Shown: one piece after another, positions 42,742 through 53,783 of the stretch
Position numbering within the stretch: position 1 is the stretch's first letter
How the letters are laid out: each line of letters opens with the position of its first letter
Assembly (NCBI GenBank): GCA_029776065.1
Contig: JARVJP010000009.1
Span: 260,514-324,513, forward strand
Length of the DNA: 64,000 nucleotides
Direction of reading: 5' to 3'
DNA from: Nitrososphaeria archaeon
GTDB taxonomy: Archaea > Thermoproteota > Nitrososphaeria > JACIWG01
Position numbers and translations under genes: made by a program
Notes under the pieces: generated by a model
Database searches by the model: none
Seen by the model: only the letters and a program-made list of their open reading frames with translations
What the model was told of the DNA's origin: nothing

Positions 42742-44667
42742 TTAGACGTCTACCCTTGATAATCTAAGAGTATTTAGGAGGGTCAATAAAGTTAAACCAT
42801 CATCTCCTACTACGAAGGCGAACCATAGAGGAGTTAACCCAAAAAGTCCTAATGCTCCTAAAGTTAACTTAATTCCTAAAGAAACTGCTATGTTTTGTTT
42901 AGTGATGCTCATTGTCTTTCTACTTAACTTGACAAGATAGGGTATTTGCGCTAACTCGTCCTTTACCAATACTATGTCTGCTGACTCGAGGGCAACATCG
43001 ACACCACTACCGCCCATAGCTATACCGACATCTGATACAGCGAGAGCAGGTGCATCGTTGATGCCATCCCCCACCATTACCACAAAGCTGTATTTGTCTT
43101 TGATTTTCGACAAGACCTCAAGTTTATCTTCTGGAAGTAGCTCCGAATAAACGTTATCTACACCAAGCTCATGTGAAACTTGTTCTGCGATCTCTTTTTT
43201 ATCTCCACTAAGAATCATAGTGTGAATCCCTAAACTTTTTAATCTATTAATTGTTTTAGTTGCGTCCTTACGTATCGTGTCAATCAAACAAATAGAGGCT
43301 TCAGCAACTTTATTAATTGATACACAAATGGGAGTATGTCTATCGCTAACATAAAGGTCAACAATTTTATCACAATTACAACCATATTGTTGCATTAATT
43401 CTAGGTTTCCAACAGCTACCTGTACCTTATCAACAAGGCCAACTATGCCTTTCCCTGGGACTTCGGTGACGTCTTCAACAACTAGTTCATCAAGGGGTAA
43501 TTTCTGATCTGTTGCTCTTTGAACTATTGCTTGAGCTGAAGGGTGATTTGAATGCTTTTCTAAAGCTGCAGCATATTTGAGAACATTTGGATCAAGTTCA
43601 TCTTTAAAGCTGACTTCGTTTACTATAGGTTTACCCAGAGTTAATGTACCTGTTTTATCAAATAAAATAGCTTCCGCCTTTCCAATTTTTTCTATATATG
43701 CTCCTCCCTTGATAATTATCCCATTTTTGGCTGCGAGAGTTATCGCTGTAAACATAGTTGCCGGAATGGAGATTATAAAAGCACTTGGGCATGAGATGAC
43801 CAACAATATTAGTGATCTATATAACCATATTTCATATGTTCCTCCCATAATTAACGGTCCAAAACCACCTGTAAGAATCGCGAGTAAGACTACTATTGGA
43901 ACGTAGATGTGAGCAAACTTATCAACCAATCTTTCTATTGAAGCTTTTCTTTTTCGAGATTCAATAACCACCTTTGCAATCTTTGAGACGAGCGTTTCTT
44001 CGGAATCCTTAACAACCTCAACTTTAAGGCTTCCATTTAGATTTAATGTTCCGGCAAATACATAGTCACCAACATTTTTTAAAACTGGAGTTGACTCGCC
44101 ACTGACAACAGATTGGTCAACAGAGGAGGATCCATTTATTATCCTCCCATCAAGTGGTATTCGTTCACCTGGTTTTATGAGTAGTGTCATCCCAATTTTA
44201 GCTTCCTTGACACTTATCTCTCTTTCTAGCCCATTTTCAACTAATCTTGCAGTATCTGGCATGAGTTTAGAAAGACTTTCAATTGTCTTTTTTGCTCTTT
44301 CTTCAATATAATTTTCAAAATGTTCTGAGAGAGAGTATAAAAAAAGGACAGTAACTCCTTCAAATAGAAAATTTAAATACATTGCTCCAAAGGCTGCAAC
44401 TGCCATAAGAAATTCAACAGAGAACTTCTTCCCAAAAAGGAGCTTCTTTAAACCAACAGATCCAATGTAAGACCCTACAAGGGTAATAGTGATGTAATAT
44501 AGTGCGTTGGAAATAGTTACATTTCTGCGAAGAATAGGTATTTCAAAGCTAAGCAATATTTCTTGCATTAGTAACTCTATTAAAGTTGAAATCACTACCA
44601 CAACACCAAGTAAGGTTGCTATTTTGATCCAAACTTTTCTCGCATGGCGTTTATTTGATTCATTCAT
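42742..44667 (-). CDS. Heavy-metal-translocating P1B-type ATPase
   Basis: A 641-aa metal pump. The membrane metal-site motif is SCPSAFIIS (CPS rather than CPC). The phosphorylation site is FDKTGTLTLG, the actuator loop SGESTPV and the hinge GDGINDAPAL. There is no N-terminal HMA domain; the protein starts almost directly with membrane helices. A Zn/Cd/Co/Ni-type specificity is suggested by the CPS variant and the divergent NikR-like regulator, not proven. Confidence 0.9.
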   Translation of the reverse strand: MNESNKRHARKVWIKIATLLGVVVVISTLIELLMQEILLSFEIPILRRNVTISNALYYITITLVGSYIGSVGLKKLLFGKKFSVEFLMAVAAFGAMYLNFLFEGVTVLFLYSLSEHFENYIEERAKKTIESLSKLMPDTARLVENGLEREISVKEAKIGMTLLIKPGERIPLDGRIINGSSSVDQSVVSGESTPVLKNVGDYVFAGTLNLNGSLKVEVVKDSEETLVSKIAKVVIESRKRKASIERLVDKFAHIYVPIVVLLAILTGGFGPLIMGGTYEIWLYRSLILLVISCPSAFIISIPATMFTAITLAAKNGIIIKGGAYIEKIGKAEAILFDKTGTLTLGKPIVNEVSFKDELDPNVLKYAAALEKHSNHPSAQAIVQRATDQKLPLDELVVEDVTEVPGKGIVGLVDKVQVAVGNLELMQQYGCNCDKIVDLYVSDRHTPICVSINKVAEASICLIDTIRKDATKTINRLKSLGIHTMILSGDKKEIAEQVSHELGVDNVYSELLPEDKLEVLSKIKDKYSFVVMVGDGINDAPALAVSDVGIAMGGSGVDVALESADIVLVKDELAQIPYLVKLSRKTMSITKQNIAVSLGIKLTLGALGLFGLTPLWFAFVVGDDGLTLLTLLNTLRLSRVDV

Positions 44668-44787: not shown

Positions 44788-45195
44788 GTGGTCTCTGTGA
44801 CTGTAGTTAGTATTACTCTACCAAACGACTTACTTAAGAAGTTCGATGAATTTATGGCGAATAGAGGTTACTATAGCCGCTCTGAAGCGTTCCGCGATGC
44901 TTTGAGAAGCTTGATGGAAGAAGCTGAATTTGCTAAAGTTGAATCTAGCCTCATATTTACTACTGTTATTATAACCTATGATTACGAGAGAAGAGATGTT
45001 GACTTAAAGATGACAGAAATAAAGCATGAATTTGATGACGTGATAGTGGAGAATGTTCATAGGCATGTGAATGGTATGTGTTGCTTAGAAATTTTTATCG
45101 CTCAAGGAAATAGCGAACGTATTAGAGATTTGATAGGCAGGATAAGAGGTATGCGAGGAATACAACAAGTTAAATCTGTGTTTGTCTCGTTATAA
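44788..45195 (+). CDS. nikR: NikR-like nickel-responsive regulator
   Basis: 135 aa with an N-terminal ribbon-helix-helix (VSITLPNDLLKKFDEFMANRGYYSRSEAFRDALRSL) and a C-terminal ACT-like metal domain. All NikR high-affinity nickel ligands can be placed: the H of EIKHEFDD, the HxH of ENVHRHVNG and the C of MCCLEIF. A GTG start at 44788 is likely. It is divergent from the P-type ATPase, so it probably controls that pump and its own synthesis. Confidence 0.9.
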   Translation: MVSVTVVSITLPNDLLKKFDEFMANRGYYSRSEAFRDALRSLMEEAEFAKVESSLIFTTVIITYDYERRDVDLKMTEIKHEFDDVIVENVHRHVNGMCCLEIFIAQGNSERIRDLIGRIRGMRGIQQVKSVFVSL

Positions 45196-48470: not shown

Positions 48471-48770
48471 CTAGTATAAGTAGGCCTCTTTTATAGTCTT
48501 CACCATTTTCTTGAGAGCGTCATAAACCTCTTGTCCACTGCTATAAAGAAAGGTCTCATCCATCGAATCACTGCTGACTATTGTAATAACGTATTCTTGG
48601 CCTGTCTTATTTATGAAGATTTTTACCATTTTTTCATTTTTCATTAAAGCATTTAACTTAATCCCTTCATCTAGTTCTATTGATGAAACCTTCTCTTCTA
48701 ACTCGTCTAAATTTAATCTTCTAACCCAGGGCACATAATCTTCATAACATTTCCTTTTTCTTTTACTCAT
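48471..48770 (-). CDS. Hypothetical protein
   Basis: About 100 aa from the start MSKRKRKCYEDYVPWVRRLNLDELEE. Predicted mixed helices and strands (ITIVSSDSMDETFLYSSGQEVYDAL) suggest a small globular domain. I do not recognise the family. It is divergent from the CysRS-like gene with a short shared spacer. Confidence 0.6.
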   Translation of the reverse strand: MSKRKRKCYEDYVPWVRRLNLDELEEKVSSIELDEGIKLNALMKNEKMVKIFINKTGQEYVITIVSSDSMDETFLYSSGQEVYDALKKMVKTIKEAYLY

Positions 48771-48813
48771 AAAGTCACGCATAACTTAAATATCATCAAG
48801 AATTTAAGTTTTG

Positions 48814-49989
48814 ATGTCTATGAATATATTTACAACAAATAAGAGGTCAGTAGTCGAACTTAAGCCTAGGTTACATAATCATTTCTTGATCCAAGTATGT
48901 GGTCCAACTCTATACGATGGACTTCACTTAGGCCACGTAAGAACCTTTTTGTTTTTTGACGTGCTAGCTCGTTTTCTAAAGCATTCTGGATACAAAGTTA
49001 GCTTTAGCATAAATTTCACCGATATCGATGAAGAAGTTTTCTACAAGGCTAGAAAGGAAGGAACTTCATTCGAGGCTGTTTCAAACAAGTTTTGCACACT
49101 AACTCTTAACACCTTTAAGGTTTTGAATATAAAGACACCTACAAATTACCCACGTTCTTCTGAGAGCGTTGAGAAAAGTATCGAAATAATTAAATCTCTG
49201 ATATTAAATGGTTTTGCTTACGAACTCAACGGAAACGTTTTCTTCGAATTTGATAAGTTATATGACAAAGGCCCTGTTTCAAGCTTAAGCAAGGAAATTT
49301 TACTCGACTTGAGGCTCGACTCATATAAGGGGAAAAGAGGGCCATTAGACTTCCTTCTATGGTACAAAACCGATCGGCACCCGAACTGGCCTTCTCCTTG
49401 GAGCTCGGGAAGACCAGGATGGCATCTACAAGATGTAGTTATGGCTAACGCCGTGTTTAATGGTCCTCACGACCTTCACGGCGGTGCAGTTGAGTTGATA
49501 TATCCTCATCACGACTTTATTGAATGTTTAGGCAGAGCTGTAGAAAGTGTTAACCCGTACGTCCCGTATTGGGTTCATACGTGCATATTATTGATTGGAG
49601 GAAAGAAGATGTCAAAGTCAGAAGGTAATGTAATCTATGTTGATGATCTTCTTAAAAAATTCAGTTCCGAATCTATTAGAACATATTTTCTTTCAACAAA
49701 TAGAGAGATGGTGATTGACTTCGAAGAAGACAACCTAATTAAATACGACGAAATGATAAAATCTTTAAGGATGGAATTGGATAAGTGTAAAGGTGGTTAT
49801 TCTCCACCTTCTAAAGACGTACTTGTGCTTAAAAGGTCAATCATTGAATCTTTATCAGAAAATATGAATACTAATAAAGCACTTGAGTTATGTATTCAAA
49901 TGGTTCAGTTAGTAAAAGAAGGAGGAATTAATGTTGAAGTCGTCAAAGAAATCTTTCAAATACTTGGTTTGGATTACCTTCTACTCTAA
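48814..49989 (+). CDS. Cysteinyl-tRNA synthetase-like protein lacking zinc ligands
   Basis: Class I synthetase fold of the CysRS family: VCGPTLYDGLHLGHVRTF holds HIGH and KKMSKSEGN holds KMSKS. It is 391 aa, shorter than typical CysRS (about 460), with a reduced C-terminal tRNA-binding part. The catalytic zinc that selects cysteine normally uses Cys-Cys-His-Glu. Here the second Cys (WHIEC in E. coli) is WHLQD, and the Glu of PHHENE is PHHDFI. It may charge cysteine differently or be a MshC-like or other ligase. Confidence 0.8.
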   Translation: MSMNIFTTNKRSVVELKPRLHNHFLIQVCGPTLYDGLHLGHVRTFLFFDVLARFLKHSGYKVSFSINFTDIDEEVFYKARKEGTSFEAVSNKFCTLTLNTFKVLNIKTPTNYPRSSESVEKSIEIIKSLILNGFAYELNGNVFFEFDKLYDKGPVSSLSKEILLDLRLDSYKGKRGPLDFLLWYKTDRHPNWPSPWSSGRPGWHLQDVVMANAVFNGPHDLHGGAVELIYPHHDFIECLGRAVESVNPYVPYWVHTCILLIGGKKMSKSEGNVIYVDDLLKKFSSESIRTYFLSTNREMVIDFEEDNLIKYDEMIKSLRMELDKCKGGYSPPSKDVLVLKRSIIESLSENMNTNKALELCIQMVQLVKEGGINVEVVKEIFQILGLDYLLL

Positions 49990-50023: not shown

Positions 50024-50428
50024 TTAAATTCTATAGACATCTTTTATCTTTTTTCTGAATATGTCCTTAGGAATTACTCCAACCGTTTTATCAACAAGTC
50101 TTCCATCTTTAAAGTAAAGTATTGTAGGAACACTCATGATGTAATATTTCTCTGATGTTGCAGGATTTTCATCCACATTTATTTTTGCAAAGGTTATCGA
50201 AGTCACCTCCTTTGCAAGCGCTTCAAATGTTGGCGTCATTATCTTGCAAGGGCCACACCAATCAGCAAAGAAGTCTACAATAACGTTCTTTTTCTCTTGT
50301 AAGAAGGAATCGAAGTTTCCATCGTTTAAATGATGTAACTTTTGTTTCTCAACCTCTTGGTACTGACTCTGACTAACGATTCCGTTAAACTTTTTCTTCA
50401 ATATTCTAGAAAGTTCTTCGTCGCTCAT
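50024..50428 (-). CDS. trx: Thioredoxin
   Basis: 134 aa with the redox motif FADWCGPCKIMTP and the cis-proline segment MSVPTILYFKDG. An N-terminal extension of about 25 residues (SRILKKKFNGIVSQ...) precedes the fold. It reduces protein disulfides in the cytoplasm. It is a single-gene unit, convergent with the CysRS-like gene. Confidence 0.94.
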   Translation of the reverse strand: MSDEELSRILKKKFNGIVSQSQYQEVEKQKLHHLNDGNFDSFLQEKKNVIVDFFADWCGPCKIMTPTFEALAKEVTSITFAKINVDENPATSEKYYIMSVPTILYFKDGRLVDKTVGVIPKDIFRKKIKDVYRI

Positions 50429-52273: not shown

Positions 52274-52681
52274 ATGAAATATAAGCTTGATAGAGGCGCG
52301 CATTCAGTTTATGCTCTTCAATATCATCTTGTTCAGGTAGTAAAATATCGCAGACAGGTGTTCGAAAATGAGAAGATTGTGGATTTTCTGAAGCAAAAAA
52401 TAAGAGAAATAAGCGAAAGTTTTGATGTAGATGTTCTAAACATTGAATGCAATAAAGACCATTTCCACATGCTTTTCAAGGCGAAGCCAACATTAGATAT
52501 GCCAAGATACATCAATGCGATAAAAACTATAACGTCGAGGGAAATCCAGAGAAACTTCCCTGAAGTAAAGGAAAAGCTTTGGAAGGGGGTTTTCTGGTCT
52601 CCATCATATTTCCTCGCCACAACTGGGCAAGTGACTTTGGATGTTTTGAAAAAGTATGTTGAGGAGCAAGGGAATGCCTAG
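52274..52681 (+). CDS. tnpA: IS200/IS605 transposase TnpA (Y1 HUH)
   Basis: 135-aa tyrosine single-strand transposase. The HUH metal motif is KDHFHMLFKA near residue 65 and the catalytic tyrosine is in LDVLKKYVEEQG at the C-terminus. All expected parts are intact, so it may be active. Its stop overlaps the tnpB start by 8 nt. Confidence 0.95.
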   Translation: MKYKLDRGAHSVYALQYHLVQVVKYRRQVFENEKIVDFLKQKIREISESFDVDVLNIECNKDHFHMLFKAKPTLDMPRYINAIKTITSREIQRNFPEVKEKLWKGVFWSPSYFLATTGQVTLDVLKKYVEEQGNA

Positions 52682-53783
52682 CTACAAGTTCAGGATTTAT
52701 CCAAGCAAGGAACAAGAGGGAAGATTGTTTGAAACTTTAGAGTTGTGTAGGCAAACTTACAACTATTTCTTGGCTGAATGGAATGGAAGGGGCAAGATAC
52801 CAAGCAGAATTAAGCTTCAGTCTCAGCTACCTAAACTGAAGAAGGAAAAGCCTGAGTTGAACAGGGTCTACTCAAAAGTTTTGCAGATGGTTCTCCACCA
52901 GCTTTACTCAAACCTAAAAGCCTTATCACAGTTGAAGAAAAATGGAAAGAAAGTTGGACGGTTAAGGTTCAAGGGTAAAGGTTGGTTCAAAACATTCGTC
53001 TACAACCAAAGTGGTTTCAAATTGATAAAAACAGGGAAGAGGCTTGACTTGCTCCACCTATCTAAAATAGGCGACATACCTATAAGGGTTCACAGACCCG
53101 TTGAAGGAAGAATTAAACAAGTCATAGTGAAGAGGCATAACTCGGGCAAATGGTTTGCCTGTGTTTGCGTTGAGAAAGAAGTGAACGTTGTTCAAAGAGA
53201 GCCTAAAAATGTTGTAGGCTTAGATGTTGGAATAAAACACTTTCTCACGGACAGTGACGGAAGACAAATAGAGAATCCGAGATTCTATGAGAAAACACTT
53301 AGAAGGATAAGAGTTCTCCAACATTGGCTTTCAAGGAAGCGTAAAGGCTCAAAAAATAGAGAGAAACAGAGAATCAAGCTTGCCAAAGCTTATGAAAGGC
53401 TTATAAACCAAAGAAACGACTTTCTGCATAAACTTTCAAGATTCTATGTAAACAATTACGACGTAATATGTGTTGAAAACCTAAACATAAAAAATATGGT
53501 TAGAAACCACAACTTAGCCCAGAAGATACTTGATGCCTCTTGGGGAAAATTCCTTCAGATGTTGTCCTACAAAGCTGAGAACGCTGGTAGGACGGTCGTG
53601 AAGGTGAACCCAAGAGGCACATCAGAAGGGCTAAGTTATGAAAATCCCTATAAGGATTGGATTTCAGCTATGCGAATAAAGATGCGGGGATGGAACAACC
53701 CTAAGACGCCTGCTAAGATGAAGCCCCTACTGGCTTACGTGCCAGCAAGCCTCATCGTTGAAGCAGGAAGCCCCTTGCGATAG
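52674..53783 (+). CDS. tnpB: TnpB RNA-guided nuclease, zinc-ribbon-less variant
   Basis: OMEGA-type nuclease of 369 aa from the ATG at 52674. RuvC-I is VVGLDVGIKHFLTDSDG and RuvC-II is VICVENLNIKNM. The usual zinc ribbon (CxxC...CxxC) and DRDxNAS RuvC-III are replaced by GTSEGLSYENPYKDWISAMRI, where KDW probably supplies the third acidic residue. Some archaeal TnpB relatives share this form. The 3' end overlaps the right-end hairpin, so an omega RNA would be made from this region. Confidence 0.9.
   Translation: MPSYKFRIYPSKEQEGRLFETLELCRQTYNYFLAEWNGRGKIPSRIKLQSQLPKLKKEKPELNRVYSKVLQMVLHQLYSNLKALSQLKKNGKKVGRLRFKGKGWFKTFVYNQSGFKLIKTGKRLDLLHLSKIGDIPIRVHRPVEGRIKQVIVKRHNSGKWFACVCVEKEVNVVQREPKNVVGLDVGIKHFLTDSDGRQIENPRFYEKTLRRIRVLQHWLSRKRKGSKNREKQRIKLAKAYERLINQRNDFLHKLSRFYVNNYDVICVENLNIKNMVRNHNLAQKILDASWGKFLQMLSYKAENAGRTVVKVNPRGTSEGLSYENPYKDWISAMRIKMRGWNNPKTPAKMKPLLAYVPASLIVEAGSPLR

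Follow-up and report, generated by a model that had tools for sequence, protein, structure and literature searches.

A short CysRS-like ligase of Nitrososphaeria with aspartate at a zinc-ligand position and a tyrosine-ending small protein beside it

Cysteinyl-tRNA synthetase (CysRS) is a textbook case of metal-based substrate selection, in which the thiol of the amino acid is read by a zinc ion with Cys, Cys, His and Glu as its ligands. The DNA analysed here, a stretch of 64,000 nucleotides from the genome of a Nitrososphaeria archaeon (hereafter, the window), encodes a CysRS-like protein in which two of these four residues are replaced. Does such an enzyme still hold a metal and act on cysteine, and does it still serve tRNA charging? 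A literature search for a CysRS paralogue in Nitrososphaeria archaea found no relevant paper.

Ligase gene, domains and paralogy

The open reading frame is real and lies where Table 1 places it, with residues numbered from the ATG at 48814 as residue 1 (P0001 numbering). The true start is probably the ATG at 48820, giving a protein of 389 aa, because orthologues start at the equivalent residue. The first-pass annotation had described a short CysRS-like enzyme with intact HIGH and KMSKS motifs, and this description holds: the protein is a class I CysRS catalytic domain (PF01406, E=3.4e-78 in Pfam; best E=4.5e-68 against solved CysRS chains) that carries both motifs, the former as HLGH, and its 391 aa give no Pfam match to DALR_2 or CysS_C, leaving it without an anticodon-binding domain. 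The NCBIfam cysS model scores it at 294.6 bits, below the cut-off of 340, and the MshC model at 197.5 bits, below the cut-off of 485.1. Its AF2 model (pLDDT 94) has CysRS and MshC as best structure matches, with a TM of 0.92 to a tRNA-bound CysRS chain and 0.86-0.88 to MshC. Comparison inside the family of the window gene gave an omega of 0.10-0.15, indicating purifying selection.

The genome that contains the window (1.74 Mb in 16 contigs) holds one other close relative. A second CysRS, which the first-pass annotation had advised looking for, is indeed present: a 489-aa protein on another contig that is complete and canonical (WHIEC, IHHSNE, CysS_C and DALR_2 domains). The window ligase is therefore a CysRS paralogue and not the CysRS of the cell, and tRNA-Cys can be charged without it. 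The second enzyme also makes an amide or other non-tRNA product plausible, and to that extent the suggestion of a different aminoacyl or amide product stands, whereas the two changes by themselves do not support a different amino acid.

Table 1 Features of the ligase and its immediate neighbours in the window
Feature	Position	Strand	Details
Small protein, 103 aa, divergent from ligase	48471..48782	-	C-terminal Tyr invariant
Codon of C-terminal Tyr (TAC, then stop TAG)	48474..48476	-	
Short CysRS-like ligase	48814..49989	+	391 aa as annotated; likely start ATG 48820
Cys29 (VCGPT), equivalent of zinc ligand Cys28	48898..48900	+	81/81 in clade
HIGH motif as HLGH, residues 38-41	48925..48936	+	Alignment
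Asp207 (GWHLQD), at position of zinc ligand Cys209	49432..49434	+	Asp 81/81 in clade
His232 (PHHDFI), equivalent of zinc ligand His234	49507..49509	+	81/81 in clade
Ile236 (PHHDFI), at position of zinc ligand Glu238	49519..49521	+	Alignment
KMSKS motif, residues 265-269	49606..49620	+	Lys265 81/81, Lys268 80/81 in clade
Thioredoxin (WCGPC), convergent with ligase	50024..50428	-	PF00085 E=1.6e-28

The short Asp-type clade and its metal site

Searches of relatives and of named GTDB genomes yielded 88 distinct ligase loci, 81 of which entered the residue counts. In a maximum-likelihood tree all short Asp-type members form one clade (support 100/99) that stands apart from MshC, so the phylogeny that had been proposed against MshC and CysRS does not place the ligase with MshC. 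The clade belongs to Nitrososphaeria and is characterized by a length of about 390 aa, the motif WHx[Q/E]D, the absence throughout of the C-terminal domain and a divergently encoded small protein that ends in tyrosine; the window copy fits this description. The DNA pattern P-x-W-H-x-Q-D matched 105 of the 400 Nitrososphaeria genomes and gave 0 matches in the controls, and its one match outside the class is chance-like, in a frame with a stop codon. Many families of the class retain the ligase, and among its named carriers are Nitrosotalea devanaterra, N. bavarica, Gagatemarchaeum, Marsarchaeota bins and Nitrososphaera sp. AFS.

According to the passage of PMC5424206 that cites Newberry 2002, the zinc ligands of CysRS are Cys28, Cys209, His234 and Glu238. 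Alignment gives Cys29, Asp207, His232 and Ile236 as the ligase equivalents of these E. coli residues, which bears out the exchanges of Cys for Asp and of Glu for Ile first noticed at this locus; the Asp stands at the identical position, and alternative zinc ligands at shifted positions were not found. Position 209 is Cys in 34/34 canonical CysRSs of the comparison. Neither exchange is due to chance or sequencing error, since the Asp is invariant in the clade and the Ile is shared by the window relatives L035-L037. The fourth ligand position is more varied, with Glu in 39, His in 34, Ile in 6, Gln in 1 and Leu in 1 of the 81 members. The substitutions are as first noticed, yet counting both as losses overlooks that Asp could itself coordinate a metal, and the change from Glu to Ile is confined to the family of the window and a few others.

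The clade keeps HIGH, KMSKS and the invariant residues Thr69, Trp203 and His204. Its consistent differences from canonical CysRS, which are E208Q, C209D, D229E, F232Y and N237A in E. coli numbering, concentrate around the metal pocket. From these residues we predict a site of Cys, Asp and His that looks remodelled rather than lost.

The same Asp occurs in full-length enzymes. An Aenigmatarchaeota bin (L117) encodes a 469-aa full-length CysRS with the motif WHIQD, and further examples turned up when 145 genomes of that phylum were searched. Among the 30 closest loci (L177 and L184-L212), 17 (L177, L184-L190, L192, L193, L198, L199, L201, L205-L207 and L212) carry WH[I/V][E/Q]D in full-length proteins, most of them with PHHEAE. 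The two Asp-type enzymes that were scanned retain CysS_C, and their scores of 507 and 528 bits lie well above the NCBIfam CysRS cut-off of 340. In 14 of 16 genomes besides that of L117, all of them assemblies of unstated completeness, the Asp-type enzyme is the single CysRS-like match, and the genome of L117 likewise has one. These DPANN proteins share with the window ligase the fold, the WH[I/V][E/Q]D motif and a neighbouring branch of the tree; they differ in keeping the anticodon-binding domain and the Glu ligand (mostly PHHEAE), where the window copy is short and has Ile, and in being mostly the sole CysRS of their assembly, where the window copy stands beside a complete one.

Apparently, then, the Asp-type DPANN CysRSs are a natural zinc-site variant of a working housekeeping enzyme. 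In a larger tree they adjoin the short clade, opposite nearly all Cys types, with support of only 84/84 on the joining branch, a placement suggesting that Asp207 probably came down from an ancestor that charged tRNA. Cysteine can be accommodated with Asp at this position if these proteins do the work of CysRS in their cells. We therefore dropped Asp207 as proof of a new substrate, the identical residue being present in full-length DPANN CysRSs. The claim that the changes alone imply zinc loss or another amino acid is not supported on the same ground and also in view of MshC, in which the position of Glu238 is Ser (PHHEYS).

The tyrosine-ending protein and other neighbours

The small protein gene lies near the ligase in 64 of the 88 distinct loci, divergently oriented and 28-37 bp away, with about 30 bp between the start codons. 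Tyrosine is the last residue in all 67 complete copies and in all 14 taken from other families (81/81), and the latter include proteins whose genes are unlinked to the ligase. Apart from this Tyr103, only Asp38, Gly40 and Phe56 are invariant in the alignment (A4), and the rest of the protein is about 20% identical. Searches of Pfam and NCBIfam returned no family match, and the AF2 model (pLDDT 86) had no PDB or viral match at E<=0.001.

Ligase and small protein occur together. Of the 400 genomes, the ligase pattern and the small protein are both found in 101, the ligase pattern alone in 4, the small protein alone in 30 and neither in 265 (Fisher p=1.6e-61, a statistic that ignores relatedness). 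A wider pattern, applied to 29 of the 30 genomes with only the small protein, matched a WHxED ligase in 17, and another of these genomes (G263) has an FHIQD ligase beside the small protein. Even within families f6 and f9 the two are present or absent together.

A GNAT gene directly follows the ligase gene at 77 of 88 loci and overlaps it at 68; in several lineages this GNAT carries a C-terminal HExxH domain as a fusion or has an HExxH gene after it. The family of the window departs from this arrangement: it keeps the ligase and the tyrosine-ending protein, and the GNAT is lost. A profile search for the module GNAT there gave only generic, shorter GNATs, and we dropped the GNAT as an obligate partner in this family. 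No other partner outlasts the loss of the GNAT, which makes the tyrosine-ending protein the leading candidate for an acceptor, carrier or regulator. The window genome does encode, at another place, a lone copy of the HExxH (zincin-like) protein that accompanies the GNAT in other lineages (G000:C10:57572-58042; L077:1474-1974, minus strand).

Several lineages also have sulfur-related neighbours, none of them universal. The thioredoxin that faces the window ligase (cluster 43) is found beside the ligase at 4 loci and is a conserved neighbour only in the family of the window, and its functional link to the ligase is uncertain. Elsewhere, a CPHC thioredoxin-like gene lies near the ligase at 15 loci, and one lineage has a rhodanese and a GcvH-TusA fusion nearby. 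These thioredoxin-like, rhodanese and TusA neighbours lend the module a sulfur flavour, with weaker links than those of the GNAT and the small protein.

Among the 400 genomes, the module is found in Nitrosotalea, Gagatemarchaeum, Marsarchaeota bins and some Nitrososphaera and is absent from most other f3 genera, a distribution that may track acidic, soil or hot-spring habitats. Inspection of the wider window by eye also showed a heavy-metal P-type ATPase (42742-44667, minus strand) adjoined by a NikR-like regulator (44788-45195, plus strand), and an IS200/IS605-type pair of TnpA-like and TnpB-like reading frames (52274-53783, plus strand).

Predicted function and alternatives

Our preferred reading, to which we assign a probability of about 0.5, is that the window gene encodes a tRNA-independent, MshC-like aminoacyl ligase derived from CysRS, working in a module that has not been described. 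The ATP site, HIGH, KMSKS and Trp203/His204 are intact, making aminoacyl-adenylate formation likely, and the enzyme would use ATP to activate an alpha-amino acid in this form. Cysteine is the most likely substrate, given the residues of the site and the existence of full-length Asp-type CysRSs. Its side chain would be held on a metal site of Cys29, Asp207 and His232, joined by Glu or His in most relatives and facing Ile in the window copy. The aminoacyl group would then pass to a non-tRNA amine, the kind of transfer that MshC carries out in the mycothiol pathway; the missing anticodon-binding domain, the other CysRS, the lack of a conserved linked tRNA and the GNAT that follows all point this way. 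In most lineages the co-transcribed GNAT would acylate the product, and the tyrosine-ending protein would be an obligate partner serving as acceptor, carrier or regulator. The sequences show the paralogy, the lost domain, the residues, a single clade adjoining the Asp-type CysRSs, purifying selection and the conserved partners; that the ligase binds a metal, uses cysteine and works independently of tRNA is what we infer.

MshC serves as the functional model. It binds zinc with three protein ligands. As the cysteine:GlcN-Ins ligase of mycothiol synthesis (3c8z, 8hfm), it resembles the window ligase in being a short CysRS paralogue with no anticodon-binding domain and a replaced Glu ligand, and the acetyltransferase MshD comes next in its pathway much as a GNAT gene comes next in most lineages of our clade. 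MshC activates cysteine (PMC5370406). The differences are equally clear: MshC keeps Cys209 (WHVEC) where the window ligase has Asp, lies elsewhere in the tree and has MshA and MshB as partners. No PIG-L deacetylase (PF02585, the family of MshB) was detected in the window genome in a search with Corynebacterium as positive control, and NCBIfam does not identify the GNAT of the relatives as MshD. Mycothiol synthesis itself was therefore rejected, the genome having no PIG-L, the MshC score being far too low and the tree separating the clades. The separate clade, the missing PIG-L, a GNAT that is not MshD and the loss of the GNAT in the family of the window also weigh against an MshC-like ligase, as does the uneven occurrence of the sulfur-related neighbours.

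Two further systems bear on independence from tRNA and from translation. CysRS* of Desulfobacterales, a CysRS that likewise has no anticodon-binding domain, nevertheless charges SelC* tRNA (PMC9437257), which counts against tRNA independence of the ligase. CysRS* is coupled to SelC* tRNA and SelB*, whereas none such was seen at the window ligase. A linked special tRNA was rejected, as none is conserved beside the ligase gene across lineages; a tRNA-Glu lies downstream only in the family of the window. At another locus, ARAGORN called a tRNA with the anticodon TTA (stop) (L116:5723-5814, plus strand), which may be spurious or else represent a tRNA with an intron. The MetRS-like domain of PyrN (9l8v), a class I aminoacyl-tRNA synthetase paralogue acting as a ligase outside translation, is a weaker fold match (E 5e-13), and this domain is derived from MetRS and belongs to a different pathway, unlike the CysRS-derived window ligase.

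The alternatives differ from the preferred reading in the metal, the acceptor or the activity. That the zinc site is lost, with the enzyme either activating another amino acid, such as Ser or one outside the proteinogenic set, or binding cysteine without a metal, is unlikely: the pocket does differ consistently from canonical CysRS (C209D, E208Q, D229E, N237A) and the window copy retains only three potential ligands, but invariant Cys, Asp and His (81/81) with Glu or His as fourth residue in 73/81 are as expected for a kept metal site, the Asp is also found in full-length, mostly sole DPANN CysRSs, and MshC is likewise devoid of the Glu. We are more doubtful that the ligase aminoacylates the small protein as its carrier or target, like EpmA (PoxA) acting on EF-P or as in carrier-protein chemistry, with the GNAT and the HExxH zincin acting on or releasing the group. 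The constancy of this partner, which persists where the GNAT is lost, its final Tyr in 81/81 copies that are otherwise about 20% identical, and the 101 genomes with both genes, also where they are unlinked, are what this idea would explain; yet aminoacyl-AMP is attacked by amines and the small protein has no invariant lysine, a C-terminal carboxylate is not a nucleophile for such chemistry, and the association could be regulatory. A looser form, in which ligase and tyrosine-ending protein constitute a new archaeal aminoacylation system, the former tRNA synthetase acting on a dedicated target or carrier protein or by way of it and the GNAT and zinc peptidase acting later, is entertained only tentatively.

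It is quite improbable that the ligase is a second tRNA-charging CysRS that recognizes only the acceptor stem, whether as a spare enzyme or for a special tRNA, and that possibly supplies a GNAT-fold aminoacyl-tRNA-dependent transferase. The Asp-type CysRSs are its closest kin, and the precedent of CysRS* with SelC* applies here too (PMC9437257), but a complete CysRS is already present, the lineages have no conserved tRNA next to the gene and every part of the clade lacks the C-terminal domain. We give hardly any credence to a catalytically dead regulatory or structural leftover: the score below the NCBIfam CysRS cut-off would fit, but all ATP-site motifs are intact, selection is purifying (omega 0.10-0.15) and many families of the class have retained the gene.

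The ligase belongs with the CysRS-derived ligases already known, and its partner, the tyrosine-ending small protein, is unexplained. Because archaea carry an Asp form of the CysRS metal site, the zinc-selection rule becomes testable by natural variation. This form appears to have given rise to a ligase module that looks independent of translation, in Nitrososphaeria of soil, acid and hot-spring settings that include ammonia oxidisers. To our knowledge, the low-molecular-weight thiols and protein modifications of these Nitrososphaeria are poorly known, and the module offers concrete genes for testing.

Separately, short CysRS paralogues of another kind were seen in DPANN archaea. At L213:3597-5512, in a genome of DPANN/Aenigmatarchaeota type (G802), a short CysRS-like gene with intact WHIEC groups with MshC (99/96) and shares a 13-bp overlap with the gene for a PIG-L deacetylase (PF02585 E=6e-31; nearest BshB1). 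From its sequence, this looks like a thiol pair of the MshC-MshB type in a DPANN archaeon. Two more short DPANN paralogues (L214:3681-4841 and L215:3973-5145), with WHIEC and HHECE, also group with MshC.
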